Virus record (IMG/VR): IMGVR_UViG_3300025759_000174
Span: 1-44,651 of that record
Source of the DNA: a virus
DNA length: 44,651 nt
Reading direction: 5' to 3' (one strand)
Below, piece by piece: positions 2,389 to 42,641 of this stretch. Below the pieces are notes generated by a model, which was not told the origin of the DNA, did not search any database, and was given only the letters and a program-made list of their open reading frames with translations. The position numbers and the translations under genes were made by a program. Numbering within the stretch: the stretch's first letter is position 1; each line of letters opens with the position of its first letter.

Positions 2389-2464
2389 AATGAATCGGCG
2401 GCATCATCCAGTCTCCCATCCGACACCGCTGTCGACACTTGCTTTATACGGTATATTACCTTAT
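2389..2464. promoter_or_regulatory. divergent intergenic control region
   Basis: This 76-base gap separates leftward and rightward units. It is GC-richer than the genome. It holds the 8-base palindrome TGTCGACA (2430-2437), a small hairpin CGACA/TGTCG (2421-2434), and TATACGGTATATTACC (2445-2460). TATATT at 2452-2457 could be a rightward -10 element, which would put the start of transcription almost on the ATG at 2465 and give a nearly leaderless message. No convincing -35 is seen. The same bases can be read as coding if the oxygenase starts at 2390. Confidence 0.4.
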
Positions 2465-3043
2465 ATGTCAAATATGCAATCGAATACTGATTTACATAAG
2501 TTTGTACAAAGAATTAATTTATTAGATAATAAAAGTTGTACCGACATAATTGAGCACATTAACAAAGCGAGGAAGAGAGAACATAAATTTTATAATGTTT
2601 ACAAAAAAGAAACAGAATTTGAAAACTCACCTAAGATGGTTGTTGATGAATCAAAAGAGTTTGCTGAAATGAGTGGAGTAATTGTAGACATGCAGTACAA
2701 ATTTGTATCAGCATACATAACAGAGTTTATTAAAATGCCTTGGTTTACTACGTGGGCTGGTTACACACCGCCTAAATTTTTAACTTATTCAAAGGGAGAA
2801 GAGATGGAAATGCACTGTGATCATATTCACTCTATCAACACTGAGCCAAGGGGCATACCTATACTAACAATTATTTGTTTGCTAAATGATAACTTTGAGG
2901 GTGGTGAAATACATTTGATTGATAAGAATTACAAACTAAAAACAGGAGAGGCTATAATATTTCCATCTAACTTTTTATATCCTCACAAAATTAATCCTGT
3001 CAAAGAAGGGGTTAGACATTCAATGTCAACATGGGTTTATTAA
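2465..3043 (+). CDS. 2OG-Fe(II) oxygenase, prolyl-4-hydroxylase-like (2 of 7)
   Basis: From the ATG at 2465 the product is 192 residues. It shows the complete facial triad of the P4H/PKHD group: HCD (H117, D119), PHK (H174) and the 2-oxoglutarate arginine R184 in VRHSMSTWVY, with the usual EGGEIHL strand and LKTGEAIIFP loop between. It should be a soluble 2OG and oxygen-dependent hydroxylase of unknown substrate. An ATG at 2390 would add 25 residues, but those codons are GC-rich, proline- and histidine-rich and outside the fold, so I prefer 2465. No clear ribosome-binding site is seen for either. The small terminase starts one base after its stop. Confidence 0.83.
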   Translation: MSNMQSNTDLHKFVQRINLLDNKSCTDIIEHINKARKREHKFYNVYKKETEFENSPKMVVDESKEFAEMSGVIVDMQYKFVSAYITEFIKMPWFTTWAGYTPPKFLTYSKGEEMEMHCDHIHSINTEPRGIPILTIICLLNDNFEGGEIHLIDKNYKLKTGEAIIFPSNFLYPHKINPVKEGVRHSMSTWVY

Positions 3044-3622: not shown

Positions 3623-4150
3623 TTACCTCATTGTAAATACCAGAACAAACCTACCACCTTTTTTAGGGAAGTTGGCATAGTGTGGCATCTTTGGAAAGAA
3701 AACACCTTTATATTTTTCAGGGAATATTTCTTTCATTTTTTTATTATTATCATCTAACAATACAGTTGATGATTTTTTATCCAAAGGATTATTTAAGTAA
3801 ACCAACAATTGATTATGTTCTATTTCATGATCTACGTGTATGGAAGATACTTTGGCTCCTGTTGGAAAATTAAAATTAATACATATTCTTAATACTTCTT
3901 TGTAAGATAATTTATTCTTGTTACAAAACTCATCTAATATTTTTATAAAATTATGGTAAAAAGGATGTAAAGGCTCATTCATTGTTCTTTCTTCTTTTCT
4001 ACGCAAAACAACGTGAGTAAAATTTTCAGCTCCGTCTGCCATGTTGACAGCATAGTTAGTATAATACATAGGAAACTTACTGCTTAATAACTTATCCTCT
4101 ATGAATAATTTACTTCTTACACTTAAGAAATTGTTATCTTCCTTTATCAC
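3623..4150 (-). CDS. 2OG-Fe(II) oxygenase (3 of 7)
   Basis: The 175-residue product has HVD (H105, D107), then LLVYLNNP, then MPHYANFP (H157) and GGRFVLVFTMR (R167), the order expected for a 2OG-Fe(II) dioxygenase core. The N-terminal half is helical and unlike the other oxygenases here. The start is a GTG at 4150 that overlaps the stop of the 59-residue gene upstream (GTGA), which supports this start by translational coupling. The family call is good; the substrate is unknown. It is leftward and converges with terS. Confidence 0.75.
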   Translation of the reverse strand: MIKEDNNFLSVRSKLFIEDKLLSSKFPMYYTNYAVNMADGAENFTHVVLRRKEERTMNEPLHPFYHNFIKILDEFCNKNKLSYKEVLRICINFNFPTGAKVSSIHVDHEIEHNQLLVYLNNPLDKKSSTVLLDDNNKKMKEIFPEKYKGVFFPKMPHYANFPKKGGRFVLVFTMR

Positions 4151-4932: not shown

Positions 4933-5584
4933 CTACCCTCTTTAACCATTCCCATTTATGTTGCCTAAATTTTGCCCCATTTATGACAAACTTTTGAAAA
5001 AATAAATCAGGCGTACACATCAGTATCACACCCTGTTCAATTTGGGTCCCGTATATTTGGTCATGCGCAGTAGCATAGGCCACCAGCTGCAAATAATAGT
5101 CACCAATATATTCTTCTCTTTTCGGCTTGTTCGATTGTTTGAAATCAATTATACTTTCGCGTCCCTGATAAATCCCACATAGATCCGTAGCACCCGCATA
5201 GAGTCCAGGATAGTGTAGAACGCACTCAGACCCCCAAATTTCTTCCAAGTCAGGTAAACCCTTCTCAATGATTACTTTTGCCATTCTCTCAGCCTCTACG
5301 CCCTCGTCAGTTAGATCTAGGAGGCCTTCTCCAAGGATATACTTCTCTAAATAACTATGTAAAGCCGTACCCCTTGTAGCTGCCTTATTCTTGACACTTT
5401 CTGCTTCAGCAATTCCTACTCGTGCTTTCCACTTAGCAATAGCCGCTCGCTTCTCGTCGCTCTCTGTGCCAGACAAGATCGTCGTTACAGACGGTAGTTT
5501 CTCTTCGCCAACGTCGTAGTGTCTTTTATTATTTATAAGTTCTCTTACCGATTTAGGGTATTTATATTTTTTATTCCACTTCAT
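4907..5584 (-). CDS. RecB/Cas4-like PD-(D/E)XK exonuclease
   Basis: The 225-residue product has the RecB-type nuclease signature in order: RGTALHSYLE (H76, E80), GATD (D134), IIDFKQ (D147, K149) and YYLQLVAYA (Q166). These are the metal and DNA-binding residues of the PDDEXK_1/Cas4 group, which in phages serve as recombination or genome-processing exonucleases. No iron-sulfur cysteines are evident, so it resembles the phage exonuclease group more than Cas4 itself. It overlaps the HNH gene upstream by 14 bases. Residues around 44-50 (EKRAAIA) are encoded by three GC-rich heptads (5442-5462). Confidence 0.82.
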   Translation of the reverse strand: MKWNKKYKYPKSVRELINNKRHYDVGEEKLPSVTTILSGTESDEKRAAIAKWKARVGIAEAESVKNKAATRGTALHSYLEKYILGEGLLDLTDEGVEAERMAKVIIEKGLPDLEEIWGSECVLHYPGLYAGATDLCGIYQGRESIIDFKQSNKPKREEYIGDYYLQLVAYATAHDQIYGTQIEQGVILMCTPDLFFQKFVINGAKFRQHKWEWLKRVDEFYKRRN

Positions 5585-6203
5585 TAAATAAGTCTAACTG
5601 TTGTTTTTTCTTTTTCTTAAAATATGTTTTTGTCATACCAATAGTTTGTTTAGGATCAGAGAACCATGAATTTTGTTTTATATGGTCAAACTTACCATCC
5701 ATGTCTGCCGCTTTTCCACCTATTGAATTCTCTTTCGCAGTTGCCCATCTTAAATTACTAATTAAATAATTAGTCTTATTTTCATCAATATGATCTACGA
5801 TATATTTTTTAGGGTCATCATTTTTTATAAATGATTTAGCTATGATAACATGCATGTTGTTCTCCCACTTAGATACTGTACTATCAATACTAGACTTATA
5901 TAATTTTGCTTTAAAATAACCCTCCGGTGCTATGTAAGGAGATGTATGAGCTATTTGTTTCTCAGTTACAGATGCTATCCAAGGCCAAACAGCTTCTCTA
6001 TATATTTGAGGAAGATCTGTTCGATGTTTAGAAACTTGACAAAAAGGATGCCAACCTCCGTCTTTAAATATATAATATCTATCTTTATGCAAATTAGCAT
6101 TAGGAAAAATGTCTTCCAATTTTATAGCTGATGTCAAATCAATATCCCAATCATTAATAGGATAGGTAAGTAAGATATCTTTATTTTTTTTAGGATGAGC
6201 CAA
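5571..6203 (-). CDS. HNH endonuclease (HNH_3, free-standing)
   Basis: The 210-residue product carries a beta-beta-alpha-metal nuclease near residues 118-160: H118, then VDHIDENKTN (D137, H138, N142), NLRW (N150) and ATAKENS (N159). This is the HNH_3 pattern usual in phage homing-type endonucleases. The N-terminal ~110 residues are unlike the nuclease and may bind DNA. The C-terminus is very lysine-rich and ends in LDLFNEVE. It overlaps the RecB-like gene by 14 bases, so it sits in the operon without interrupting a gene. It may be a mobile endonuclease or serve host DNA breakdown. Confidence 0.8.
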   Translation of the reverse strand: MAHPKKNKDILLTYPINDWDIDLTSAIKLEDIFPNANLHKDRYYIFKDGGWHPFCQVSKHRTDLPQIYREAVWPWIASVTEKQIAHTSPYIAPEGYFKAKLYKSSIDSTVSKWENNMHVIIAKSFIKNDDPKKYIVDHIDENKTNYLISNLRWATAKENSIGGKAADMDGKFDHIKQNSWFSDPKQTIGMTKTYFKKKKKQQLDLFNEVE

Positions 6204-6548
6204 TTATTCACCTTTATAAAACTTTGATAATTTTTTAACATAATCTTTATCGTCAAGGAAGACATCGCGTCCGATACTCTCTTCCTTAACGCCGAGCGTC
6301 GTCGCTACCCTTTCAGGTCGTTGCTTAGGTTCAGAGGAACGCAATACTGCAGGACTTGTACCCCTAGCTCGGTCAATTTTTGAAACTCTTCCATTACCAC
6401 TTCGTTCTAAATCAGGCCATTTACATTGTATGGTATACTTACCACTGTCTGAAGCTATGACAATGTCATGTCCGTAAGGTTTATCATAAACCCAATGTTT
6501 TCTATACGTCGGTATGTCTATTATTGTATCAATGTTTTTGTTTTTCAT
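6204..6548 (-). CDS. conserved hypothetical protein
   Basis: From the ATG at 6548 the product is 114 residues; that start has GGAGAAAG about eight bases ahead. An ATG at 6584 gives 12 more residues but has no such site and lies within another small gene. The chain has a WVYDKPYGHDIVIASDSGKYTIQC strand-rich part and a charged R/E-rich part (RPERVATTLGVKEE) ending KLSKFYKGE. The ORF stops next to the HNH start. No function is recognised; composition and position favour a small regulatory or nuclease-accessory protein, but that is a guess. Confidence 0.6.
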   Translation of the reverse strand: MKNKNIDTIIDIPTYRKHWVYDKPYGHDIVIASDSGKYTIQCKWPDLERSGNGRVSKIDRARGTSPAVLRSSEPKQRPERVATTLGVKEESIGRDVFLDDKDYVKKLSKFYKGE

Positions 6549-6630
6549 ATTTCTTTCTCCCCATATACCAGTCGCCGGGTTCATAGTCCCATCGTTTACC
6601 GTGATGTCCTCTTACATCGGCGTACCACAT
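6529..6630 (-). CDS. 33-residue small protein (putative)
   Basis: The frame starts MWYADVRGHHGKRW and contains DYEPGDWYMGRKKYEK, a W/Y/D/G-rich composition typical of real small phage proteins and not of random AT-rich frames. It overlaps the following gene by 20 bases, the range used by its neighbours. The ribosome-binding site is weak (CTAAGA just upstream). Function unknown. It fills an otherwise empty gap between the glycosyltransferase and the hypothetical gene at 6204. Confidence 0.42.
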   Translation of the reverse strand: MWYADVRGHHGKRWDYEPGDWYMGRKKYEKQKH

Positions 6631-6652
6631 TCTTAGTTTAACTATTATTTTT

Positions 6653-7405
6653 TTAAAATACATCTTTTACCCATGGATATTTTCCGTCAGGAAATCTTTT
6701 AACCATTTCTTCGTGTCCTTGTAAGTACCATTGTTTTGCAAATTCTAGTTGTTCATCATTACCACGATTTAATCTAAAATTTATTGTAAATTCATTTGTA
6801 CAGCCTAGCTTTGGATAATGTTTAGAAAAAACATCAAAGACAAACTTATCGGTTCTTTGATTATTTTCTCTAGAAAATCTAAAACAGTTACCAAGGTGCA
6901 TTAACATTTTTTTGGACACACACCAAGATTGACCATCTATGATGTAATAATTCTCCGTTGACCAAACAGGATAGAAGCCTATTGATTCAAAGATATCTTT
7001 ACAAATAAATTTCTTGTTCTTATCATAAATATTTCTAAATGCAAAAACCCAGTCAACATTATGTTTTTCTAATACAAAATTTATGTTTTGAAAGTGCTGT
7101 CTATCTAACCAGTCACCTGTACCTAAAGGTTGCCAGTAGTCATAGTTTACAAGATGTATCATGCCCGAAGATATGTGCTCCGGTCTGAATTGGCCGTCTT
7201 TACTTATCTTTTCAGGTAATACAAAATGTAGAGTATTTTTAGGTTTAAGCTTGTTTAGAATCGTTCTAACTTGATCATGACCTTTCTCTGTGTCCGTGAC
7301 CAAAGTATGTTTAACATTTGAATAAGATTGAGTTTGCACTGATTCAATCGTGTCTTCTAATCCTTCTTCACCTAATGTTGGTGTATAGACATTATATAAT
7401 TTCAA
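6653..7405 (-). CDS. glycosyltransferase family 2-like protein
   Basis: The 250-residue product begins KLYNVYTPTLG..GLEDTIESVQTQSY, a variant of the GT2 opening (nucleotide-sugar-binding strand followed by 'SV..Q.Y'). GTGDWLD near residues 95-101 replaces the usual acidic metal motif, and SQ/WFAF elements follow as in GT-A folds. It should transfer a sugar from a nucleotide donor; acceptor unknown. It is soluble. It overlaps the coiled-coil gene upstream by four bases. It may modify host surface sugars or a phage protein. Confidence 0.68.
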   Translation of the reverse strand: MKLYNVYTPTLGEEGLEDTIESVQTQSYSNVKHTLVTDTEKGHDQVRTILNKLKPKNTLHFVLPEKISKDGQFRPEHISSGMIHLVNYDYWQPLGTGDWLDRQHFQNINFVLEKHNVDWVFAFRNIYDKNKKFICKDIFESIGFYPVWSTENYYIIDGQSWCVSKKMLMHLGNCFRFSRENNQRTDKFVFDVFSKHYPKLGCTNEFTINFRLNRGNDEQLEFAKQWYLQGHEEMVKRFPDGKYPWVKDVF

Positions 7406-7701
7406 AGAACTCCTTTATTTCTAAATTGTTTAACAGATTGTTGTAATTGTTTTTTTAACGATTTATAATCTTCAGCTATTTTTCTAAGTTCAATAACTTC
7501 TTCTGTTATCTTTTGATTATATTTATGTAAGGTTTCGTTCTTAAATTTTAACCTTTCATTTTGTTCCTCTAAATCATTAGGTCCTCTTCTGTTTGGCAAG
7601 GTTTTGTTTCCTTTCTTATTATGTTTAGGGTGATAGCTTTTATCATCCTGCATTTGAGCAACCATAGCTGCCCATTCTTCTACATCTTTTTGACTCATCA
7701 T
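7402..7701 (-). CDS. coiled-coil hypothetical protein
   Basis: The 99-residue product starts MMSQKDVEEWAAMVAQMQDD, has a basic linker (KHNKKGNKTLPNRRG), and from about residue 43 is one long helix with a heptad pattern (LEEQNERLKFKNETLHKYN, VIELRKIAEDYKSLKKQL). There is no membrane segment. GGAGG sits ahead of the ATG at 7701. The start overlaps the stop of the small lipoprotein gene by four bases, so the pair is coupled. Function unknown; coupling to a lipoprotein recalls spanin pairs, but the missing membrane anchor argues against it. Confidence 0.62.
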   Translation of the reverse strand: MMSQKDVEEWAAMVAQMQDDKSYHPKHNKKGNKTLPNRRGPNDLEEQNERLKFKNETLHKYNQKITEEVIELRKIAEDYKSLKKQLQQSVKQFRNKGVL

Positions 7702-9208: not shown

Positions 9209-9675
9209 CCTAACCAAGGTAAGTATTTAACTTTACCGTCCTCTCGTCTAGCTTTAAGCCATTGGTTTCTATTATTTTCTGATGAATAACTACAATGAAT
9301 CCATCCTGATGTTGGTTCGCCTTCTTTGTAAAATTCTAAAATCCCTTGATCTATCTCTAAATTATTTTTAATCCAAATTGCTAAATCTAAATTATCTACA
9401 CCAGGTATTTCAAAATCTGCTGCCGCCGCTCCATTGTCAGCTACATGTTGACTGGTAACAGAGCTACCTATTTCTATACACAGCTGGGCACATCGAAATC
9501 CTGATGAAATGATTAATGGTTTATCAAAGTGTGATCTAATTGGTTGTAATACATTTACAGCCAATGCTTTTAAATTTTCTATTTGCGCTGGGTTAGGATT
9601 ATTATTAATACCCTTACGTTCAGCTATTTGGCTTTTGGTAAGTTCGTCTAAAGTTATGTTAGCAGTTAATTTCAT
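9205..9675 (-). CDS. M15-family peptidase, probable endolysin
   Basis: The 156-residue product matches the Peptidase_M15_3 family: IISSGFRC (R61), SQH (H77), AAADF (D87) and GWIH (H127), the three zinc ligands of D,D/L,D-carboxypeptidase-type enzymes. It should cut peptide cross-links of peptidoglycan at the end of infection. There is no signal peptide, so export would depend on a holin or another membrane protein such as those encoded just upstream. It overlaps the 2OG oxygenase upstream by four bases. Confidence 0.82.
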   Translation of the reverse strand: MKLTANITLDELTKSQIAERKGINNNPNPAQIENLKALAVNVLQPIRSHFDKPLIISSGFRCAQLCIEIGSSVTSQHVADNGAAAADFEIPGVDNLDLAIWIKNNLEIDQGILEFYKEGEPTSGWIHCSYSSENNRNQWLKARREDGKVKYLPWLG

Positions 9676-10250
9676 ATTACTTTAAAGTTATAAGCTAAAC
9701 TAATTCTTGTTTCATCTGAATTATTTTTTCCAACAGAGTGTCTTACATCTGATTTAAACATTATTAACTTTCCTGGCTCTGGTGTAAAGTCAAAATTTTG
9801 CCAAGTATAAGGGTTATTTTTATCATACAAAGGAGGCATTGTTCGTATTAATGGACCATTTATTCTTATATCTCCACTATTTTCGTTTGATTTAAGATAA
9901 TAAACAGAAACTAATTGATCTGTAATATGATCATGTTCTTCTTGATAATCTCCAGGTTCATAATAATTAATCCAACTTGAATCACAGTTTATTTGTCTAT
10001 TTTTGAAACCAACTATATCGGCAAAATCACATATACTATTAAATACAAATTTTGTTATTGAGTTAAATTTTTCATTTGTATGTACATTGTAAGTTCCACA
10101 AGTATTAAAAACAGTTGACTGCCAGTTACTTCCACCTTGTTTGTTTTCTTTTTTTATTTTGGTGCATTCATCAACAAGTTCATCTTGAACTTCGTTATGT
10201 TTTTCATTTGTAGTGATTGCTACGGGAACAGAAAAAAGATTTTGAATCAT
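9672..10250 (-). CDS. 2OG-Fe(II) oxygenase, TIGR02466-like (4 of 7)
   Basis: The 192-residue product has EEHDH (H106, H108), LVSVYYL, GKLIMFKSDVRHSV (H171) and ETRISLAYNF (R182), the TIGR02466/2OG-FeII_Oxy_5 layout. It begins MIQNLF like the oxygenase at 712-1275, and the two end in nearly the same strand (RISLA.N), so they look like paralogues. It is unexpected inside a lysis module: its stop overlaps the M15 peptidase start (ATGA) and its start overlaps the tiny membrane gene upstream. Substrate unknown. Confidence 0.85.
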   Translation of the reverse strand: MIQNLFSVPVAITTNEKHNEVQDELVDECTKIKKENKQGGSNWQSTVFNTCGTYNVHTNEKFNSITKFVFNSICDFADIVGFKNRQINCDSSWINYYEPGDYQEEHDHITDQLVSVYYLKSNENSGDIRINGPLIRTMPPLYDKNNPYTWQNFDFTPEPGKLIMFKSDVRHSVGKNNSDETRISLAYNFKVI

Positions 10251-28082: not shown

Positions 28083-28913
28083 TTACTTAATTTTTTGTTT
28101 GGCGTCAATCTTTTTTAAATCAAGCGTGAGGTCATCTATCAACTTACCCTTAAATTGATACTCTCCTACGTGAGAAATTTCATCTAACACATATAAATGG
28201 CATTTACCACCTATTGCTGTCCATCTTTTACAGAAGCCAAAGTCCTCACCATAATATCTCTTTGTTTCAGGCTCATGATAGGTATCAAAAAAATTGTAAA
28301 AATAAGGTCTTGGAACTTCTGCTCCGTTAATAATCGTAGGTTGTTTAATTTCTAAATTAGGGTAGGCCTTTATCATTCTATGAAATACATTTTTCTTAAT
28401 TAACATACATCCTGTTGGAGCGTGGGATACTTCAGCAACTCCTTCTTTAACTTTTATTTGATTACTACCTTCTATTTTTATAGGCCAAATAAAACCTAAT
28501 CTAGAAAGTTGTTCTCCGGTCATATTGGGTTGTTTTCTCTTTTCTACTTTATTCCAATCAATAGTTTTCATTGGATAAGGAGCAGCAATAACATCTACAT
28601 CTTTTTCTATCATTTTAAATATTGTTTCTGGCTTAAATTCAACATCAGAATCTATAAATAAGAAATGAGTATAAGGATGTTTATCACATTCTTCTAAAAA
28701 ATTAGAAACACAAAGGTTTCTACCTTGAGTAACCAAAGAAGATTTTAACAACGTAAAACTAACTAAAATACCTTGACCAAGACAAACTTGTTGAAACTTT
28801 AAAAGTGATTGAGTGTAGTGAATAGAACATTCTGAATGACAAGGTGTTGCTACAAAAATAGAAACTTTTTTACTGACAGGTTGGTTAATCCATATGGGTG
28901 TATTATTTTGCAT
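28083..28913 (-). CDS. glycosyltransferase, GT-A (DxD)
   Basis: The 276-residue product has VSIFVATPCHSE at the nucleotide-binding edge, THFLFIDSDVEF with a DSD motif (residues 88-90), a PTGCMLIKKNVF segment, and YYGEDFGFCKRW further on. DxD plus GED..FC.R is the GT2/GT-A pattern of phage enzymes. It overlaps the GT-B gene upstream by 11 bases, giving a two-gene sugar unit inside the virion operon. No membrane segment is seen. It may glycosylate a tail or capsid protein, or a host surface sugar. Confidence 0.82.
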   Translation of the reverse strand: MQNNTPIWINQPVSKKVSIFVATPCHSECSIHYTQSLLKFQQVCLGQGILVSFTLLKSSLVTQGRNLCVSNFLEECDKHPYTHFLFIDSDVEFKPETIFKMIEKDVDVIAAPYPMKTIDWNKVEKRKQPNMTGEQLSRLGFIWPIKIEGSNQIKVKEGVAEVSHAPTGCMLIKKNVFHRMIKAYPNLEIKQPTIINGAEVPRPYFYNFFDTYHEPETKRYYGEDFGFCKRWTAIGGKCHLYVLDEISHVGEYQFKGKLIDDLTLDLKKIDAKQKIK

Positions 28914-29832
28914 TTAGTATTCCTTTCAAAAAGTTAGTCCAAGCCATACCTATTTTATTCCAATTATAATATTGATTTGTATATTCTATTTGAAATTTTA
29001 AATGTTTTTGTATTCCAGGATTATTTAAATTAGGTGCTGCATTTTCAACAGCAAAAGCAAAATTAGCTGCTAAACTTAAATGATTATGTTGATAAGGAAC
29101 ATAGGTTGAAAACTCAGCACAAGTTTCATACAAAGCTCCAAAGTCTGTAGTAATAATGTATAAACCAGCTGCCATAGCTTCTACTGCAGATATACAAAAA
29201 GTTTCTTCCCAAATATTAGGATAAACAAACATATCATATTTATGTAAATTTTCTTTTATATATTCATTTGGTTTATATCCAATATAATTAACATTCGGTA
29301 GCTGTTTAGCTTGAGAATATAATTCTTCATAATGTTTATCATTCATTTGTTTAAATGCTGTGCCATATACTTCACAAGAAGAATAAACATCTAATTCTAT
29401 ATTAGGATTTTTTATAAGTTGCATCGTTGCTAACATTACATTTAATCCTCTCCAAGGTGTAGGATGAAAAATTAATTTTACTTTTTTATCTTTTTTTTGA
29501 AGATCTCTAGGTTTAATATTATCTATTCCATTTTTAATTACTAAACATTTTTCTGTTGGTACATCAAACTCTTTTCTAAATTGTTCATAATTCCAATGTG
29601 AGTTAAATACATACCAATCATATTTTTTGTGATTGTTTTTATCTAAAAACCAAGGTCTTAAATTAGGTTGATCATAAGAATTTTTTTGCCAAAGTATGTT
29701 TGGCTTTGTTGGATGTAACGGAATTTTTTCTGGAACTGAAGTTGTTATTTGAACTTTATCTAAAAAACTTTTATCAACATGCTTTTTTAAATATTCAAAC
29801 TGTAATTCAGTACCACCTCGTGGTTCTTGCAT
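28903..29832 (-). CDS. glycosyltransferase, GT-B family 4-like
   Basis: The 309-residue product has RGGTEL near the N-terminus, WYVFNSHWN, a central LIFHPTPWRGLNVMLAT strand-loop, and WEETFCISAVEAMAAGLYII with E210 and E218, the E-x7-E sugar-nucleotide signature of GT4. The chain is a little short for a full GT-B enzyme (usually 350-400), so part of the first domain may be missing. It is tightly linked to the GT-A gene downstream. Confidence 0.82.
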   Translation of the reverse strand: MQEPRGGTELQFEYLKKHVDKSFLDKVQITTSVPEKIPLHPTKPNILWQKNSYDQPNLRPWFLDKNNHKKYDWYVFNSHWNYEQFRKEFDVPTEKCLVIKNGIDNIKPRDLQKKDKKVKLIFHPTPWRGLNVMLATMQLIKNPNIELDVYSSCEVYGTAFKQMNDKHYEELYSQAKQLPNVNYIGYKPNEYIKENLHKYDMFVYPNIWEETFCISAVEAMAAGLYIITTDFGALYETCAEFSTYVPYQHNHLSLAANFAFAVENAAPNLNNPGIQKHLKFQIEYTNQYYNWNKIGMAWTNFLKGILNAK

Positions 29833-30355: not shown

Positions 30356-30519
30356 TAACTAAGAAACCAGTTTTTCTGGTCCTCCTCATTTCTTATATCT
30401 TGTTTATATCCAAAATTAAGTTGATTTTTTAGAGTATCCAAGGCTTCAATAAGTTGTCTTTGATTATCAACTTTATACTCATCTACTGGATCTGGAAAAA
30501 CTGGTGTTATTGTACCCAT
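30355..30519 (-). CDS. 54-residue conserved small protein
   Basis: The product starts MGTITPVFPDPVDEYKVDN and continues RQLIEALDTLKNQLNFGYKQ with an EEDQKNWFLS end. The helix-forming L..ALD.LK.QLNFG and WFL end recur in small genes behind large tail genes of marine phages. The ATG touches the stop of the 647-residue tail protein, and its stop overlaps the next ATG (TAATG), so it bridges two virion genes. Function unknown. Confidence 0.68.
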   Translation of the reverse strand: MGTITPVFPDPVDEYKVDNQRQLIEALDTLKNQLNFGYKQDIRNEEDQKNWFLS

Positions 30520-32462
30520 TATCTTCTACCTCCTGCGTGAATATCTAATCTTAAAGTGCCATATCTCCACGACTGGTCTTTACCATCATTTTCAATTTTC
30601 AGACTTACTTGTCTTCCTCTAACTCTTGTGCTTTTAAATTCAGTTGTAGTATTAATTGTAAAAGGTCCTGTAACTAAAGGATAATTATTATCAGTTGTTT
30701 CGGATGATGCTGGATAGTTTCTAAATCTTAAAGTGACTTTTGCATTACCTTCTAAATTTTTAAAGTCGGGTATAAATCTAGATACTCTCATAATATTTTC
30801 ACCTGCTCCATTTAAACCTTGTTGCGCGTCTAAATCATAATCACCAGATATTACATAAGAAGTTATAGCAAACGATGTAGTATCAGCAAGAACAGCATTA
30901 GTGCCTGTTTCATGTGCCCAAAATCTCGTTGCTCCGTATGTATTTGATGCACCATTAATAACTGGAAAAGAGGGTACAGTGCTTGCTAAAAATTCAGTAG
31001 CATAAGGCAATGAATAAGTATGATTGTCTTGATAACTTGTTCTGGATAAAGATCCTGTTGACCAAGTATTTTCTACATAGTTATAGGTTACTACTCTATC
31101 AATTTGAGCTGATCCTGCTTTTGGATAAAACCAAAATATTTCATTGTATAAACTGTTGTGTTCACCATAAGCAATTTTACTAGCTTCATAGTTTATACCT
31201 AAATTAGAGTTTCCAGTTGTAAATACAAAATCTTCTACGAGTGATCCTAATTGTGTTACTGTTCCATCAAATTTAAAAAAACCTCCACCGAAACCCATCC
31301 AATATACAGCTCCTTGTGAATATACCAAAGTGTGTTGTGATAAACACCCACAGTTAGAACCAACTTGTCTAAGTGAAAAAGTAAAAGGTGGTCCAACAAA
31401 TTGAATTACATAAGCTGCTTGATCAGTTAAAACCAACACATAATCTTTACCTTGAACAGCGGCTATAATTTCATTTCCTTGATCGAGTAAAAATGTTCCT
31501 GCAGTATTTGTTGCAGTTGGAGTATAAGTATTAAAGTCTTCTTGGTTTGAAAATCGAATAAACATTTTATTTTGTGTATCTGTATTACCTATAGTTTCTT
31601 CTGTTCCTATATGAAACAAATGTCTGTCTCTATCTGACACAAGAGTCATAACTGAAGCTGTAGGTGCATTTGTCATTACAACTGCTCTTGTATCAATTGC
31701 CGATGGGCCATCTTGAGCAATAGTATTCCAAGTAAAAGTTCTGCCGTTGTGAATTGTTGCAACAAGAGTTTGACCAAAAGTGTCCAGTGACCAGTTACCA
31801 GGATCTAATGTTACATTTGAAGATGTTGATGCTTCTCCCCATTTTTCACTACCGTAAGTATCTGTACCCCAACCAAACGCCGAAGTTTGTGCAATGGGTC
31901 CTATGGTTACATATCTATTCTGAGTCGCTGATCCAGCAGAAGATATGCCAGAGCTTGTTTCATTTGAAGGCATTGTAATTGTATATGCATTACTTCCGCT
32001 TAAAGATGTTACTTCAAAAACATTTGTTGTAAAATCTGCTGCAACAAAAGACGTACCACTTCCAGGTAATGTTACACTTTTAAATTTTACATAGTCTCCA
32101 ACAGCAACTTGTGCTGCCGTTACATTTACAGTTACTGTAGCTGATCCGTTTGTGGTTGTAAAAGTTACACCTGATTGATCTGCTTCTACAGGTGTAATAT
32201 CATAAAAAGCAGACTCGTAATAAATTACTAATAACTTAGATGTACCAATGGCAGCATACTTTCTACCATCTAAGTCTGACCAACTAAGTTGATCACGAGC
32301 AGGACCTGCTAAAGTTGCATTAACAAGTTCTGACCAACCCCCTATTTTTTCTGGTTGACCATATCTAAATCTAACATTGTCTCCGTCAGTCCATTGACCT
32401 TCAGCACCTGTTTCAGTATCTTGTTTATTAAAACCTGGTCTAAAATTAATTTTTTGAAGCAT
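30519..32462 (-). CDS. P22 gp10-like tail / DNA-stabilisation protein (putative)
   Basis: The 647-residue product starts MLQKINFRPGFNKQDTETG and has GQWTDGDNVRFRYGQPEKIGGWS, a conserved opening of large virion proteins in marine podoviruses. The rest is beta-rich with WGTDTYGSEKWGEAS, DLDGRKYAAIG and NHTYSLP segments suggesting propeller-like repeats. It resembles the Phage_stabilise (P22 gp10) group that closes the head-tail vertex. It is the first leftward gene after the rightward modification cassette. No enzyme motif is seen. Confidence 0.65.
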   Translation of the reverse strand: MLQKINFRPGFNKQDTETGAEGQWTDGDNVRFRYGQPEKIGGWSELVNATLAGPARDQLSWSDLDGRKYAAIGTSKLLVIYYESAFYDITPVEADQSGVTFTTTNGSATVTVNVTAAQVAVGDYVKFKSVTLPGSGTSFVAADFTTNVFEVTSLSGSNAYTITMPSNETSSGISSAGSATQNRYVTIGPIAQTSAFGWGTDTYGSEKWGEASTSSNVTLDPGNWSLDTFGQTLVATIHNGRTFTWNTIAQDGPSAIDTRAVVMTNAPTASVMTLVSDRDRHLFHIGTEETIGNTDTQNKMFIRFSNQEDFNTYTPTATNTAGTFLLDQGNEIIAAVQGKDYVLVLTDQAAYVIQFVGPPFTFSLRQVGSNCGCLSQHTLVYSQGAVYWMGFGGGFFKFDGTVTQLGSLVEDFVFTTGNSNLGINYEASKIAYGEHNSLYNEIFWFYPKAGSAQIDRVVTYNYVENTWSTGSLSRTSYQDNHTYSLPYATEFLASTVPSFPVINGASNTYGATRFWAHETGTNAVLADTTSFAITSYVISGDYDLDAQQGLNGAGENIMRVSRFIPDFKNLEGNAKVTLRFRNYPASSETTDNNYPLVTGPFTINTTTEFKSTRVRGRQVSLKIENDGKDQSWRYGTLRLDIHAGGRR

Positions 32463-32535
32463 ATCTGTCTATAATACCTAATTTTGTTTATTTGACTAGA
32501 CTATTTTTATATAATAGAGTATAGCCATATCATAA
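32463..32535 (+). promoter_or_regulatory. promoter-like region of the rightward modification cassette
   Basis: This short divergent gap has a perfect -10 TATAAT (32510-32515) ahead of the cassette. TTGACT (32492-32497) is only 12 bases upstream of it, too close for a standard -35, so recognition may rely on the -10 alone. On the other strand TATTAT near 32470 could serve the leftward tail gene. The gap separates a + strand unit from the - strand virion genes. Confidence 0.45.
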
Positions 32536-33042
32536 ATGATGAAAGAAAACGATAAAAAAGATCTAGGCTTTACTATCATAGATAATTTTATGGATAAGAC
32601 CTATTTCAAGCAATTGCAAGATTTGGTTATGGGTGATCAAATGCCTTGGTTTTTTCAAAAGCAAGTAAATAGCTTTGATAAAAATATATATTTTACACAT
32701 ATTCTTTATCAAGACTATTCTCCTTGTTCTAACTTTTGGGGACATTTTCAGAACCTAGCACTGAGACTAGATGCAAAAGCTTTTATAAGAATTAAAATGA
32801 ATTGTTATCCTAGAACAGAAAAAATCATAACACATGCTAGTCATGTGGATGAAGACTTTGAGCATAGAGGTGCTCTCTTTTATTGGAATACCAATAATGG
32901 TAAAACCATTTTAGAAAATGGAACTGAGATAAAATCTGTTGCAAATAGAATGTTACTATTTAATGCAGCAAGGCCTCATCGAAGCACGACGTGCACAGAT
33001 CAACCAGCTAGGTACAATACAAATTTTAATTTTTTTAAATGA
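32536..33042 (+). CDS. 2OG-Fe(II) oxygenase (5 of 7), first gene of cassette
   Basis: The 168-residue product has HASHVDEDF (H103, D105), GALFYWNTNNGKTIL, then FNAARPHRS (H148) and QPARYNTNFNFF (R159), the 2OG-Fe(II) facial triad and oxoglutarate arginine. The core starts with TIIDNFMDKTYF, as in P4H-type enzymes. Either of two adjacent ATGs (32536, 32539) may be used. Its stop overlaps the carbamoyltransferase ATG (ATGA), a coupling that suggests the two act on the same substrate: hydroxyl made by the oxygenase, carbamoyl added by the next enzyme. Confidence 0.82.
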   Translation: MMKENDKKDLGFTIIDNFMDKTYFKQLQDLVMGDQMPWFFQKQVNSFDKNIYFTHILYQDYSPCSNFWGHFQNLALRLDAKAFIRIKMNCYPRTEKIITHASHVDEDFEHRGALFYWNTNNGKTILENGTEIKSVANRMLLFNAARPHRSTTCTDQPARYNTNFNFFK

Positions 33043-34697
33043 GAATATTAGGAATATCTCCTTACCATGACGCTAGTGTTTGCATCTTAGACGATGGAGA
33101 AATTACATATTTTTCAAAACAAGAAAGATTAACACGTAAAAAAAGAGATGAGTTAGGTGAAAATCAACTTACTGTTTTAAATTATGTTTTAGATAATTAT
33201 CAAGATACACCAATTGATAAAATAGTTATATGTTCCCCAACACCAAATTCTCAAGGTGTTGATTGGTTACAAATGTATATGTGGACAAAAATAAAAAACC
33301 CTAAAGGTTGTCAAATTATAAAATATTGTCAGGATCATCATTTAGCTCATGCAACTTTAGCTTTTAACAATAGTGGTTTTAAAGAAGCTTTAACTTTTGT
33401 TATTGATAGAAATGGTGCAATGATGGAAGATAGAATGAGAGAAAGTGAATCCGTATTTACTTGTAAGTATCCTGCTAATTTTAAAACTATATATAAAAAT
33501 TATTTTCTTGTTAATAAAGGACAAGACCATGATGTAGAAAATCATCAGCTTGTTTCTAAAATGAAAAAAATATTTAAAGATGCAGAAGTAAAAGGTGATA
33601 GCACTATGAACATTACCAAAGTCTATGAATCTGCAACAACATTAATTGGTCAACATGTTTTAGAAAATGGAAAAACTATGGGTCTTGCTGGTTACGGAAA
33701 AGATAAAAAATTTCCTGACTTAATGAATGATGATTTATATTTTCATTATCACGGCATGGAAGTAGGTTACAAAGAACATTTTGGTTTACAAAATAAAAAC
33801 TTTGATAAAAGAAAATCTTTATATGCAGACTATGCTTTTCAAGTTCAAAAACAAACTCAGGAAATGGTTCTTAATCTAGTTAAGAAGTTTGTTAAAAAAA
33901 CAGGAATACGTAATGTTTGTTTAACAGGAGGTTATGCATTGAACGTTGTAACAAACGGATATTTAATTGAAAAGCTACCTCACTTAAATTTTTATTTTGA
34001 ACCTTTAGCAGATGATTCTGGAAATAGTCTTGGTGCAGCTATGGACTTACATAGAACATTAAACAAAGACAAAACAATTCGTAAATTAGTTCATACCTTT
34101 TTTAATCATACTAAAGAAAAAATTAAACCTGTTGGAAAAAAATGTAGTGTTGCTGATATAGCAAAAGCTTTATCTAAACAAAAAACAGTTGCAGTATATT
34201 ATGGAAAAGCAGAATCAGGTCCTAGAGCTTTAGGACATAGATCTATTTTATTTGATGCAAGAAATAAAAATGCCAAAGACATAGTAAATAAAATTAAGAA
34301 AAGAGAATGGTACAGACCGTTTGCTTGTTCTGTTTTAGAAGAAGATGCAAATGAGTATTTTAATATGCATGGTTTAAATGAATCTCCTTTTATGACTATT
34401 TCTTTTCCTGTTAGAAAAGAGAAAAAAAATATTATACCGGGTGTAATTCATGTTGACAATTCTTGTCGTATACAAACTGTAAACAACTCTATTCCTCATT
34501 TTTTTGAATTACTTACTGAATTTAAATATTTAACTAATGTTCCTGTTTTATTAAACACATCCTTTAATCTTGCTGGAGAGGCTTTAGTTGAATCTTATGA
34601 AGACGCAATAAAAACATTTAAGAAATCAGATATTGATATATTATGGTTTCCAGAAACAGAGAGGTATATAAATGATAAGTCCAATTTGGCCATTTGA
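33039..34697 (+). CDS. NodU/TobZ-family carbamoyltransferase
   Basis: The 552-residue product has the full two-domain layout. The N-terminal Kae1-like domain has RILGISPYHDASV, DHHLAHA (H100/H101, H104, metal-binding) and VIDRNG (D123). The second domain has TGGYALNVVTNG, EPLADDSGNSLGAA, AESGPRALGHRSIL and YRPFACSVLEED, with NTSFNLAGEALVE near the end. The family moves a carbamoyl group from carbamoyl phosphate, through carbamoyl-adenylate, to a hydroxyl. Known members modify Nod factors and antibiotics. Length is usual for the family. It lies between two 2OG oxygenases, with overlaps on both sides. Confidence 0.93.
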   Translation: MRILGISPYHDASVCILDDGEITYFSKQERLTRKKRDELGENQLTVLNYVLDNYQDTPIDKIVICSPTPNSQGVDWLQMYMWTKIKNPKGCQIIKYCQDHHLAHATLAFNNSGFKEALTFVIDRNGAMMEDRMRESESVFTCKYPANFKTIYKNYFLVNKGQDHDVENHQLVSKMKKIFKDAEVKGDSTMNITKVYESATTLIGQHVLENGKTMGLAGYGKDKKFPDLMNDDLYFHYHGMEVGYKEHFGLQNKNFDKRKSLYADYAFQVQKQTQEMVLNLVKKFVKKTGIRNVCLTGGYALNVVTNGYLIEKLPHLNFYFEPLADDSGNSLGAAMDLHRTLNKDKTIRKLVHTFFNHTKEKIKPVGKKCSVADIAKALSKQKTVAVYYGKAESGPRALGHRSILFDARNKNAKDIVNKIKKREWYRPFACSVLEEDANEYFNMHGLNESPFMTISFPVRKEKKNIIPGVIHVDNSCRIQTVNNSIPHFFELLTEFKYLTNVPVLLNTSFNLAGEALVESYEDAIKTFKKSDIDILWFPETERYINDKSNLAI

Positions 34698-35250
34698 GGC
34701 TGACAAAGTACATCACTATGCATATGCAGATAATGTATTAACAAAAAAAGAATGTGAGGATCTTGTATTCTTTGCAAAATCAATGGATCCTGAAGAAGCT
34801 TTTGTAGGAAAAGATAAAAAATTAAATTATGAAATTAGAAAAAATAAAGTTAGATGGTTAACACCTCATAAGGAGATACAAGATGTATATAGAAAAATTA
34901 CTGATGCAATTGTATCTTTAAACAAAGATTTTTTTAATTTTAAACTTTATGGTATTTATGAAAGTCTACAATTTACTACTTATGGTAAAGATGAAAAGTA
35001 TATTAAACACACTGATAGACTTTTTAGTAGTGTAATTAGAAAACTATCTTTTTCAATTCAACTTACAGATCCTGAAAAATATGAAGGTGGAGATTTAGTT
35101 TTATATGATGCAAACGAAGAAACAAAAATGAATAGAAAACAAGGAACAATAATTGTTTTTCCTTCTTTCCTTCCACACGAAGTTAAACCTGTAATAAAAG
35201 GTGAAAGAGATGCTTTAGTAGGTTGGATAACTGGGCCTAATTTTAATTAA
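34672..35250 (+). CDS. 2OG-Fe(II) oxygenase, PKHD-type (6 of 7), third gene of cassette
   Basis: The 192-residue product has KHTDRLF (H113, D115), SIQLTDPEKYEGGDLVLYD, QGTIIVFPSFLPHEV (H169) and GERDALVGWITGP (R179): a full PKHD/P4H-type hydroxylase. GAGG lies seven bases ahead of its ATG, which is inside the carbamoyltransferase gene (26-base overlap). It shares only the core with the first oxygenase of the cassette, so the two may hydroxylate different positions. It converges with the leftward gene at 35247 (4-base overlap) with no terminator between. Confidence 0.85.
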   Translation: MISPIWPFEADKVHHYAYADNVLTKKECEDLVFFAKSMDPEEAFVGKDKKLNYEIRKNKVRWLTPHKEIQDVYRKITDAIVSLNKDFFNFKLYGIYESLQFTTYGKDEKYIKHTDRLFSSVIRKLSFSIQLTDPEKYEGGDLVLYDANEETKMNRKQGTIIVFPSFLPHEVKPVIKGERDALVGWITGPNFN

Positions 35251-35582
35251 GCAGTTTGCCAAGTATTAGCGTCTTCGTCCCAATATGAATAACCTTCAGG
35301 TTTTCCTGACGGTTCATCCCATTTACCTGTAGAAGTATTGTAAGTAAAAGATTCAGATGGTTTAGGTTCTACAAAAGCATCATTGCTAGAATCATAAGTA
35401 TAACCAATACTTGCCCTAATTTTTCTTGAACCACCATCTAAAAAATATTCTACATATTGATTATTAGAATCAGCTAAAGGTTTAACAGCAGCTGCTTTTT
35501 CTGCTGTAGTAACATCATCTTGAAATACAGTTGTTTCAATGACTTCGTTAGAATTATTTATTTCTGCCCAATATTTAGCCAT
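35247..35582 (-). CDS. fibre-associated small virion protein (putative)
   Basis: From the ATG at 35582, which overlaps the stop of the glycine-rich gene (TAATG), the product is 111 residues: MAKYWAEINNSNEVIETTVF, GGSRKIRASIGYTYD, and W-rich KWDEPSGKPEGYSYWDED. The MAKYWAEI...N.VI start and YD....F.EPKPS.S..Y...T.KWDEP pattern is a small virion protein often found after tail-fibre genes in marine phages. A longer frame to 35762 reads the Gly codons of the neighbour in another frame (R/W-rich) and was rejected. Confidence 0.68.
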   Translation of the reverse strand: MAKYWAEINNSNEVIETTVFQDDVTTAEKAAAVKPLADSNNQYVEYFLDGGSRKIRASIGYTYDSSNDAFVEPKPSESFTYNTSTGKWDEPSGKPEGYSYWDEDANTWQTA

Positions 35583-36439
35583 TAGATAGGGTACCTCACT
35601 ACTACAATTCCACCTGAACCAGATCCACCTGTTCTGTTTTGGCCGCCATTTCCGCCTCCGCCAGAACCAAATCCTGTTCCAGAAGGAGCTGTTCCTTGAC
35701 CGTTTTGTACAGAGCCGTTTCCGCCTCCTCCTTGACCGCCTTGACCAGCAGCCATTTGCCAAGTTCCGCCGCCGCCTCCGCCAGCATAATATTGATCTGA
35801 ACCAGTTTGAAAAGCATTTTGAATTCCTGCGCCACCCGGTCCTCCGGTACTACCCGATCCTCCAGTTCCTGCTTGGCCCGCGCCACCGCCGCCACCAGCG
35901 CCGTGTTGTGGAGATCCTGCTCCGCCGCTTCCGCCTGAAGTACCAAAACTAGATCCTGTCCACGGAGATTGAACTCCTGGTTGGTTAGAAGATCCTCCTG
36001 AGGTAGGTTCGCCACCCCCTCCGCCGCCGCAGCCGCCGCTAGAGCCGCCGCCCTGACGAAATCCGCCACCTCGGCCACCACCTTGGCCTGTTTGACCAAA
36101 TCCAGTTGTGTTTCCTCCAGTTCCAAAAGAACCTGCTCCGCCGCCAATTGAGATTGAATAAGAAGCGGGTCCGCTTGCGTTTTGTGTTAATACGATTGCT
36201 CCTGATGCACCGCCACCTCCGCCGTGATTTTGACCTCCGCCTCCACCGCCGCCGAGTACCATTACATCTAATTCGCTTGTGTCGCCTGCTTCAATTTCAA
36301 AAGTTCCGTTTGAAGTAAAGGTGTGTACTCTAAATCCACCATACTCTGTGATAGTTCCACCTGTAGCTGTAAGTCCACCACCAGCTCCGAAACCGAAACC
36401 TTTTACTGATGCTGAACCTATTGTTGTTAAAATTGGCAT
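35582..36439 (-). CDS. glycine-rich tail fibre / adhesin-like protein
   Basis: The 285-residue product has a strand-forming start (MPILTTIGSASVKGFGFGAG, VHTFTSNGTFEIEAGD) and then ~190 residues dominated by glycine runs with S, N, Q and A, ending GSGSGGIVVVRYPI. Long Gly-rich loops are a hallmark of polyglycine-II-type phage adhesins (T4-like gp38) and of glycine-rich fibres common in marine phages, ending in a short strand. The gene lies next to the hydroxylase-carbamoyltransferase cassette, so it is a possible substrate, though no repeated Pro-Gly motif like collagen is present. Confidence 0.75.
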   Translation of the reverse strand: MPILTTIGSASVKGFGFGAGGGLTATGGTITEYGGFRVHTFTSNGTFEIEAGDTSELDVMVLGGGGGGGQNHGGGGGASGAIVLTQNASGPASYSISIGGGAGSFGTGGNTTGFGQTGQGGGRGGGFRQGGGSSGGCGGGGGGEPTSGGSSNQPGVQSPWTGSSFGTSGGSGGAGSPQHGAGGGGGAGQAGTGGSGSTGGPGGAGIQNAFQTGSDQYYAGGGGGGTWQMAAGQGGQGGGGNGSVQNGQGTAPSGTGFGSGGGGNGGQNRTGGSGSGGIVVVRYPI

Positions 36440-36456: not shown

Positions 36457-37536
36457 TTATGCAAACTGTGTTTGAGAAGCTAAAACTGTAAACGTAGAAG
36501 CTGCAGTTTTTATTGCCGTCATAGTATATGTATCGTTTGATGTTGCGTTTCCTGCAGTGAATGAAGATCCACCTTGATAAACAATAGTTACGTTTGTTGT
36601 TTTATTGTCTACTACAAAAGAAGTAGCAGCCCACGTGTTGTTATTGTTTTTATTAATATATGCAACAGTAATCGACTCACCTATATCCATTACAGCGTCT
36701 AATGAATTAGATCCGTCTCCTCTTAAATTAATTTTAAAATTACCAGATGCTGCAGCTGTACTTAAAATAACTGCTTGTGTTTGTGTATCAATTACAACGT
36801 TTGTAGAAAATGTACCATCAACGGTTACTTTTTCAGCAAGACCTTGAATCTTACCACTACCATTTAATGTAACTCTTCCTGTTCCTTTTGGAGTTATATT
36901 AAGATCAATGTTTGTGTCACCACCTGTTGCTGATAAATTAGGAGCATTTCCTGTTGCAGCATTTGTAACATCAAATTGATTTACAGCAGATGCTGTTTTT
37001 TGAAATACAATTTGTTCATTACCAGAATCATCATTAATACCATGAGCATCATCAAATTGAATATTTTGTGAATTAGTATCTAAGTCTGCAGATAATTGTG
37101 GTGAGTAGTCTGAAGAAAGATCAGTTAAACCAGTGTCTACAATATTTGTTCCATCTGAGTAAAGAATCTTAGTTGTTTTTTCATTGTCACCAAAAGTTAC
37201 TCCAGATCCTGATGCTGTTTTAACTGTTAAAGATAATGTTCCACCAGTTGAGTTTTTTACTATATAAGTTTTTTCAATTCCGTCAGGAATATTAACTGTA
37301 CAATCACCTGAAGGTGTACCTGTAATATCAATTACAGCATTTTTACCATTTGATAATGCACCATTTGTAAACGCTAAAGTAATAGCGTTTGTAGATGCAA
37401 CAGAAATAGCTTCTCTTCCAGCAATTGCTTGTTGAACAATGTTTAAGTTTGTATTTGTAATGTCACCCCAAAGACCAGCTTTTTCACCAGTGACCATTAA
37501 CTCTAGTTTTAAATCTGTACTATAACTTGATGGCAT
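36457..37536 (-). CDS. tail fibre-like protein
   Basis: The 359-residue product begins MPSSYSTDLKLELMVTGEKA with GLWGDITNTNLNIVQQAIAG, a recurrent opening in marine phage fibres, followed by beta-rich Asn/Thr/Gly repeats (TVNIPDGIEKTYIVKNSTGG, INLRGDGSNSLDAVMD). No enzymatic motif is seen. It is 17 bases upstream of the glycine-rich gene and most likely part of the same fibre or its assembly. Confidence 0.7.
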   Translation of the reverse strand: MPSSYSTDLKLELMVTGEKAGLWGDITNTNLNIVQQAIAGREAISVASTNAITLAFTNGALSNGKNAVIDITGTPSGDCTVNIPDGIEKTYIVKNSTGGTLSLTVKTASGSGVTFGDNEKTTKILYSDGTNIVDTGLTDLSSDYSPQLSADLDTNSQNIQFDDAHGINDDSGNEQIVFQKTASAVNQFDVTNAATGNAPNLSATGGDTNIDLNITPKGTGRVTLNGSGKIQGLAEKVTVDGTFSTNVVIDTQTQAVILSTAAASGNFKINLRGDGSNSLDAVMDIGESITVAYINKNNNNTWAATSFVVDNKTTNVTIVYQGGSSFTAGNATSNDTYTMTAIKTAASTFTVLASQTQFA

Positions 37537-42122: not shown

Positions 42123-42641
42123 TTAGTATTGAAAGACCTCATTAAAATTAAATGCTATGGCATATTTTACTTTTTCTGTAATATTTCTGTCACAACTATG
42201 CTTTAATTCTGAAGAAAACATAACAATTTTACCTTCTTCCGGTGTAATTTTTTCGTTTATATCAGGAAATATTAAATCTTGGTGATGATCATTTAAATAC
42301 AAAACTCCTGAAATTACAGATGGTGTGTGAGCGTGTTCTATTGTTCTACCACCAAAGCCTTCTGCTATACCCCAAGCAAGACTTAATTCATAAGGTCTTA
42401 TAAATTTATGTTTATCAACTTTATCTAAAACAGGATAAATTATTTTCATAAATTCTTTGTCAGAACAAAAATATCGCCAATCAGTCATAAGACCAACAAC
42501 ATTTGTAGCGTAGTTATTTTTAGAAGATTTAATATCTTCTTTTATTTTATCTATAAAATATTCAGCATTTATTTTTACTTTACCAACCAAAAATAAATAG
42601 TCTTTTTGTATTTTTCCTATTACTTCTTTCTCTATTTTCAT
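42123..42641 (-). CDS. 2OG-Fe(II) oxygenase, TIGR02466-like (7 of 7)
   Basis: The 172-residue product has EHAHTPSVISGVLYL (H103, H105), EGKIVMFSSELKHSC (H148) and KVKYAIAFNF, in which lysine 157 occupies the place where the other two TIGR02466-like copies have the oxoglutarate arginine. The fold pattern (SGV.YL, I.MF.S...H) is intact. It lies on the far side of the terminator behind the capsid gene, so it is transcribed by read-through or from its own promoter. Activity is uncertain because of the lysine. Confidence 0.75.
   Translation of the reverse strand: MKIEKEVIGKIQKDYLFLVGKVKINAEYFIDKIKEDIKSSKNNYATNVVGLMTDWRYFCSDKEFMKIIYPVLDKVDKHKFIRPYELSLAWGIAEGFGGRTIEHAHTPSVISGVLYLNDHHQDLIFPDINEKITPEEGKIVMFSSELKHSCDRNITEKVKYAIAFNFNEVFQY

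Follow-up and report, generated by a model that had tools for sequence, protein, structure and literature searches.

Introduction

Carbamoyltransferases and oxygenases have both been annotated in cyanophages, where the carbamoyltransferases are listed as sporadic genes (PMC3037559). In pelagiphages, oxygenases and their partners labeled 'ferrochelatase' have been reported as auxiliary metabolic genes (PMC9599517), in a paper whose main text contains none of the words carbamoyl, halogenase, tail fiber and receptor. A study of metaviromic islands counts Fe(II) oxygenases under host recognition (PMC3909814), and glycine-rich gp38 tips with a polyglycine sandwich bind the receptors of T2-type phages (PMC12892980). 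The 2-oxoglutarate (2OG) oxygenases of marine phages are widespread, and the literature searched gives them only tentative metabolic or DNA-repair roles. Here, we analyze a cassette of two 2OG oxygenase genes flanking a carbamoyltransferase gene, located at positions 32536-35250 of the IMG/VR virus record IMGVR_UViG_3300025759_000174 (positions 1 to 44,651; this whole stretch of 44,651 nucleotides is referred to as the window). An original prediction, made from the letters of the window, had one oxygenase making a hydroxyl and the carbamoyltransferase capping it. The phage carries these genes in a swappable slot beside a probable receptor-binding tail gene, and this suggests that many ocean phages may chemically decorate the part of the virion that recognizes the host.

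The capsid protein of the window is 80-84% identical to those of HTVC027P, HTVC023P and 023Pt_psg01, and the DNA polymerase is 52-61% identical to its counterparts in the same phages; thus, the phage is a relative of the HTVC023P-type pelagiphages, and this kinship makes SAR11 the likely host.

The cassette and its predicted enzymes

The cassette consists of three overlapping open reading frames on the + strand: (i) ox1 (32536-33042), a 2OG-Fe(II) oxygenase of the PHROG 274 family, assigned from its reading frame, a PHROG match and a structural model; (ii) CT (33039-34697), a complete, two-domain O-carbamoyltransferase of the NodU/TobZ type, assigned from Pfam, PHROG and homologues in the PDB; (iii) ox2 (34672-35250), a prolyl-4-hydroxylase-like 2OG-Fe(II) oxygenase, assigned from Pfam, conservation and an AlphaFold2 model. 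The overlaps are 4 bases between ox1 and CT (33039-33042) and 26 bases between CT and ox2 (34672-34697), and the flanking reading frames 30519-32462, 35247-35762, 35582-36439 and 36457-37536 all lie on the - strand. This layout, i.e., an overlapping trio running against leftward virion genes, agrees with the original prediction in positions and overlaps. Five more IMG/VR contigs have the same arrangement, with a CT identity of 98-100%, and these near-identical cassettes exclude an assembly artefact. Because a search of viral contigs with the single CT protein returned these five copies only, an alignment query was used for the wider set.

Both domains of the NodU/TobZ type, the N-terminal Kae1-like and the C-terminal YrdC-like one, were found in CT above the Pfam cut-off (Carbam_trans_N, PF02543, 4.4e-26; Carbam_trans_C, PF16861, 4e-58), and the protein matches PHROG 1601 at 1.7e-130. 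Among homologues, the residues H10, H100, H104, D123 and D326 are invariant and the motifs GPRALG, RPFA and NTSFN are conserved; the enzyme is complete, as had been claimed for it. Solved relatives in the PDB are TobZ, GdmN and decarbamoylnovobiocin carbamoyltransferase (NovN-type), and the metal-site residues and C-domain motifs of CT align with the GdmN, NovN-type and 7xb6 structures. We take H100, H104, D123 and D326 to be the counterparts of the TobZ metal ligands. CT is predicted to move a carbamoyl group from carbamoyl phosphate/ATP onto a hydroxyl.

The HxD...H...R residues proposed for the two oxygenases are borne out by conservation and by predicted folds. ox2 matches Pfam 2OG-FeII_Oxy_3 (4e-15), and all four residues of H113-x-D115...H169...R179 are invariant across 35 ox2 relatives. 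Its AlphaFold2 model (predicted local distance difference test score, pLDDT, 89.9) has the double-stranded beta-helix fold, and the best PDB match found with Foldseek is the prolyl-4-hydroxylase bound to EF-Tu (4iw3, E 1.6e-12, TMq 0.76), followed by PHD2 and then by the viral collagen prolyl hydroxylase (vCPH). ox1 matches PHROG 274 (2e-43), which databases label 'DNA endonuclease V', and scores 17.1 bits against 2OG-FeII_Oxy_3, under the curated cut-off of 27, which is a detection threshold and not a defining trait. In 24 relatives of ox1, H103, D105 and H148 of H103-x-D105...H148...R159 are invariant, and R159 is kept in at least 90%. Since a sequence search of ox1 against the PDB gave no match, structural comparison was used; the best Foldseek match of the AlphaFold2 model (pLDDT 91.7) is the P. 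putida prolyl-4-hydroxylase (4j25, E 2.6e-8, TMq 0.62). These models predict that ox2 is nearest to the protein-acting prolyl-4-hydroxylases and that ox1 belongs, more distantly, to the same group.

An exchange island with changing content

The cassette fills a slot between three tail-tip genes and a conserved virion structural gene (PHROG 3287; 30519-32462, - strand), which forms the left border. The tail-tip genes, all on the - strand, are a tail gene that served as the right border in our census (36457-37536), a glycine-rich tail-tip protein with 39% Gly and a Pfam Gly_rich_2 match, which is the proposed substrate and adhesin (35582-36439), and a small protein of 111 amino acids whose homologues adjoin the same islands (35247-35582, with 35582 as the probable start). 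The slot is filled in all mapped relatives, with different enzymes; gene content that varies between conserved tail genes of close relatives, by which host-recognition exchange islands are recognized, was thus found here. The census was anchored on the structural gene 30519-32462, and is therefore not biased towards CT; it covered 72 loci with upstream sequence. From one to ten 2OG oxygenases were present in 65 of these loci, CT in seven and a homologue of tryptophan halogenase in three. The island genes were all forward in 36 loci, all reversed in 29, mixed in one and absent in six. For example, the slot of HTVC027P holds three 2OG genes in reversed orientation, like the window, and that of HTVC023P and 023Pt_psg01 holds a 2OG cluster in forward orientation. 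CT occupies the same site in the relatives L024, L025, L033, L035, L041 and L042. In L041, the island combines CT and a halogenase homologue with eight or more oxygenases, and gene content differs between close relatives such as L035 and L110.

A fixed pathway, with CT capping a hydroxyl made by one of the oxygenases as originally predicted, was rejected on the grounds that the partners differ from locus to locus. Most islands have no CT; in 023Pt_psg01, the homologues of ox1 and ox2 share a 4-base overlap and have no intervening CT; and the closest CT beyond the near-identical copies (69% identical, L024) stands at the same site with different oxygenases. Hydroxylation followed by carbamoylation of one site is chemically reasonable but is not singled out by the data, and we regard it as improbable. 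The original interpretation is therefore partly supported, and we now read the cassette as an allele of a modification island linked to the tip instead of as a dedicated pathway.

Co-occurrence elsewhere, on which the original prediction had staked itself, was found. The same trio is present in L025 in another order (ox2-'ferrochelatase'-CT-ox1-tryptophan halogenase), and 28 of 92 CT loci have a directly adjacent 2OG gene, with at least nine changes of state on the CT tree. Over these 92 loci, the 2OG density is 2.5 per 10 kb in the first kb from CT and about 0.6 beyond 4 kb, i.e., about four times higher near CT, in many contigs. The neighboring oxygenases are of the ox1, ox2, 'phx', 'x3623' and 'fech' types; the association is recurrent and the identity of the partner is variable. 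These counts bear on the possibility that the three enzymes are unrelated passengers with separate substrates, which have nothing in common but a place in the virion operon that tolerates insertions. The fast turnover of composition, the occurrence of most subsets, the different oxygenase partners of a single CT clade in L024, L025 and the window, and the presence of most oxygenases without CT would all be expected of passengers. Conversely, the elevated density near CT, the nine or more changes of adjacency on the CT tree, the overlaps of 4-26 bases and an island content that consists almost entirely of group-modifying enzymes, not random genes, are not, and we consider passengers a rather unlikely explanation.

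Two further gene families accompany these islands. Homologues of tryptophan halogenase lie in or beside CT/oxygenase islands (L025:4375-5799, L026:3504-4982, L027:5987-7450 and L041:2240-3844, with PF04820 tested in L025-L027), and others were seen in L158, L160, L174 and S-SSM7 (L004:9912-11399). The genes labeled 'ferrochelatase' (L025:1347-1982 and about 50 relatives, HTVC023P gp67, cyanophage T4-GC 615) have an invariant HxD and a later invariant His in marine phages and co-travel with 2OG oxygenases; the label is probably wrong in these phages, although the position of the usual 2OG-binding Arg is not conserved.

Oxygenase type and tip type

Two tip types were scored, the Gly-rich type and the 'collar' type of HTVC027P gp70. 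All 24 collar tips were accompanied by the x14581 oxygenase and none by ox2, whereas ox2 accompanied 19 of 33 Gly-rich tips and x14581 only 4 of 33 (Fisher test, 1.6e-6 for ox2 and 2.7e-12 for x14581). On the tree of the structural gene there are many switches of tip type, which provide eight phylogenetically independent pairs on supported branches. x14581 follows tip type in nearly all eight (median sign test, p 0.008), and ox2 does so in about 5:0 (p 0.06). Given the turnover of islands between close relatives, simple descent does not explain the pattern. x14581 is a 2OG oxygenase family (that of L012:14581-15174), and every collar-type island for which both borders could be seen is in reversed orientation.

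Within the Gly-rich type, tips with ox2 contain 6.3% Pro versus 3.2% in tips without it (p 1e-4), and the motif PPxxP(P/S/A)QG is present in 9 of 20 tips with ox2 versus 0 of 15 without (p 0.004), both comparisons being uncorrected for tip phylogeny. The motif recurs in HTVC033P. No clear signal of tip residue enrichment linked to CT or halogenase was detected. An example peptide of the HTVC023P Gly-rich tip is GNTPPVSPPQGN. A longer form, GN(T/S/D)PPxxPPQGN, is common to the tips of L013, L014, L033, L035, L110, L118, L136 and L184 (HTVC033P) and was seen solely alongside ox2 and 'ferrochelatase' genes; at L024, L133 and L158, loci that have no ox2, the motif reads P-N or P-S.

Similar settings exist in other phages. 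In a distantly related family, the T4-like cyanophages S-CAM8, P-RSM4, S-SSM5 and S-MS29 and in three contigs, ox2, 'ferrochelatase' and CT genes abut a Gly-rich gene (~390 amino acids, 30-34% Gly; Gly_rich_2 tested in one), and in HTVC033P, a further pelagiphage, ox2 and 'ferrochelatase' directly follow Gly-rich genes. The ox2 query alone matched 373 phage records. The rule that ox2 always lies beside a Gly-rich gene failed on nine annotated phages, with only HTVC033P fitting.

Neighbors of the carbamoyltransferase and alternative substrates

In the main rival reading, the targets are glycans of the host surface, or a precursor of a virion glycan, and their modification changes superinfection or receptor access; like NodU and TobZ, CT would carbamoylate a sugar, and the oxygenases would act on the same glycan or on its carrier. 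In a large part of the CT tree (L004, L016, L019-L021 and about 30 IMG/VR loci), a GT9-like (heptosyltransferase-like) gene directly precedes CT, and heptose or nucleotide-sugar genes follow it amid tail-fiber genes. This order is that of the S-SSM7/S-CAM3-type cyanophages; a GT9-like gene is near CT in 37 loci, and the CT of HTVC008M lies among glycosyltransferase and UDP-glucose dehydrogenase genes. The window itself has two glycosyltransferase-like genes 3 kb from the cassette (28083-28913 and 28903-29832, both on the - strand and conserved in HTVC023P and HTVC027P), which may make a glycan of the virion or of the host. With neighbors of the GT9-like and heptose kind, a sugar is a possible substrate of CT, and the sugar-gene and tip-gene settings of CT would be reconciled if the tip were glycosylated. 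However, no sugar genes adjoin CT in the clade to which the CT of the window belongs (L024, L025 and L027), the exception being L026 with sugar-type genes 4-7 kb from CT; host-glycan editing does not predict that oxygenase type tracks tip type; and the modeled fold of ox2 is that of a protein hydroxylase. We regard host-glycan modification as unlikely, although it is the rival to be taken most seriously.

Among the targets named in the original prediction, a virion protein is favored by the location of the cassette and by the linkage between oxygenase and tip, and a DNA base is disfavored, the usual partner enzymes not being found in the window. In DNA hypermodification, an oxygenase or another enzyme would provide a hydroxymethyl base and CT would carbamoylate it, as in 5-carbamoyloxymethylcytosine. 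A NodU-type 5-hydroxymethylcytosine carbamoyltransferase does exist in environmental phage DNA (PMC8670742), and in some cyanophages CT is a neighbor of thyX or part of a replication/purM region. Nevertheless, the 37 window proteins scanned gave no match to thymidylate synthase, dCMP hydroxymethylase or the Tet/JBP family (the genome may extend beyond the window), the cassette sits in a tail-tip locus and not near the polymerase, and the models of the oxygenases resemble protein hydroxylases; DNA modification thus appears highly improbable. In S-RIM44 (L005), a carbamoyltransferase annotated in two pieces (5406-7661) directly follows thyX and is a candidate for a nucleic-acid-modifying or decayed enzyme.

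Auxiliary metabolism, with oxygenases that use 2-oxoglutarate or small molecules to tune the host and a CT that feeds nucleotide synthesis, has been suggested for cyanophages (PMC3037559; PMC9146016). CT belongs to the NodU family and not to the aspartate/ornithine carbamoyltransferases of nucleotide or amino-acid synthesis, and both the placement in a tail-tip island and the dependence of oxygenase type on tip type are at odds with a metabolic role, which we consider very unlikely.

Other features of the window

The 73-bp gap 5' of ox1 (32463-32535) contains TATAAT at 32510-32515, as originally noted; a promoter there is not supported, because promoter-like matches in the region are at chance level (21 found versus 19.1 +/- 3.6 in shuffles). 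Ratios of nonsynonymous to synonymous substitution rates (dN/dS) between the window and L008 are 0.07 for CT, 0.24 for ox1, 0.58 for ox2 and 0.24 for the tip, every value being below 1, so that this comparison shows no positive selection. The reading frame listed as 35247-35762 (- strand) has a TTG start that lies within the Gly-rich gene; the probable real start of this small gene is 35582 (MAKYWAE...), and the gene is convergent with ox2, the two overlapping by 4 bases. The window contains five more genes for 2OG-Fe(II) oxygenases, at 712-1275 (-), 2390-3043 (+), 3623-4150 (-), 9672-10250 (-) and 42123-42641 (-), the last adjoining the capsid gene, which brings the total to seven in 44.6 kb.

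Proposed role of the island

We propose a swappable 'tail-tip modification island', of which this cassette is one allele and whose enzymes would act post-translationally on the adjoining Gly-rich tip adhesin or on a glycan attached to the tip. ox2 and, less certainly, ox1 would hydroxylate side chains by prolyl-4-hydroxylase-type chemistry, with O2, 2-oxoglutarate and Fe(II), and CT, drawing on carbamoyl phosphate/ATP, would carbamoylate a hydroxyl of the tip or of its glycan. Judged from the modeled fold and the indirect correlation with the Pro motif, ox2 probably hydroxylates proline. The result would be an altered chemistry of the receptor-binding surface, so that tip and enzymes would be swapped together, matched to each other. 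The analysis shows the genes with their catalytic residues and predicted folds, the conserved site, its fast turnover and the linkage of tip type with oxygenase type; from these we infer that the substrate is the tip, that hydroxylation falls on proline and that CT works on the tip or on a glycan of the tip. For a tail-tip or virion target overall, we put the chance at a little short of even.

It should be noted that several observations weigh against this proposal. The main caveat is that joint recombination of the neighboring tip and island, and not function, may explain their linkage. The Pro motif is a lead and not a result, because tip phylogeny is uncorrected and the tip of the window itself has no PP motif, with 3.2% Pro. 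Homologues of ox2 are also found at a distance from tail genes, in the replication regions of CRP-810 and HTVC008M, and beside tail genes that are not Gly-rich (S-PRM1, S-8S55, P-SSM7), and many enzymes with a prolyl-hydroxylase fold use other substrates. The role of the Gly-rich protein as a receptor-binding adhesin is proposed from its position and composition.

The broader proposal is that at least two marine phage families carry swappable prolyl-hydroxylase-like oxygenases, sometimes with an O-carbamoyltransferase or a halogenase homologue, which are matched to the tip and form a post-translational tailoring system of the virion, writing hydroxyl, carbamate or halogen on the receptor-binding tip as non-genetic chemistry. 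We hold this tentatively, as a possibility that falls well short of being probable. If true, host recognition by phages would include an additional, covalent layer that is invisible to structure prediction and to host prediction from sequence, and the islands would point to new peptide-hydroxylating, carbamoylating and halogenating catalysts with a candidate substrate encoded next door. The link between oxygenase type and tip type makes a specific answer for the marine-phage oxygenases testable, namely, decoration of receptor-binding proteins.

Comparison with known systems

The features that appear new here are the borders of the island, the linkage between tip and oxygenase, and the occasional presence of a carbamoyltransferase or halogenase; they were not found in the literature searched, most subscription literature being outside the search. 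For the chemistry, CefF/CmcH in cephamycin and PolO/PolL in polyoxin are pairs of a 2OG oxygenase and a carbamoyltransferase that act on one molecule. These are actinomycete antibiotic pathways, and they serve as a chemical precedent only, for hydroxylation followed by carbamoylation; a literature search for such precedents in antibiotics returned none. The 5-hydroxymethylcytosine carbamoyltransferase is likewise of the NodU/TobZ type, comes from environmental phages and caps a hydroxyl, but its partner is a thymidylate-synthase homologue (PMC8670742), of which the scanned proteins of the possibly incomplete window include none. The metaviromic islands are likewise a fast-varying pelagiphage host-recognition region with oxygenases, and they differ in that, within the accessible part of that study, a mechanism, matching to the tip and a carbamoyltransferase were not found (PMC3909814). 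What the tip of the window has in common with T2-type gp38 is a Gly-rich composition.

Two other described systems are close. The Nol/NodU-like carbamoyltransferases of T4-like cyanophages (PHROG 1601, T4-GC 303) are full-length homologues of CT with 33-39% identity, and in S-CAM8, P-RSM4, S-SSM5 and S-MS29 they also lie next to an ox2 homologue and a tail-fiber region; there, in a T4-like myovirus, CT diverges from ox2, whereas in the window, a relative of HTVC023P-type phages, CT lies between ox1 and ox2. The 2OG oxygenase/'ferrochelatase' clusters of HTVC023P and HTVC027P belong to the same phage group as the cassette and occupy the same site.

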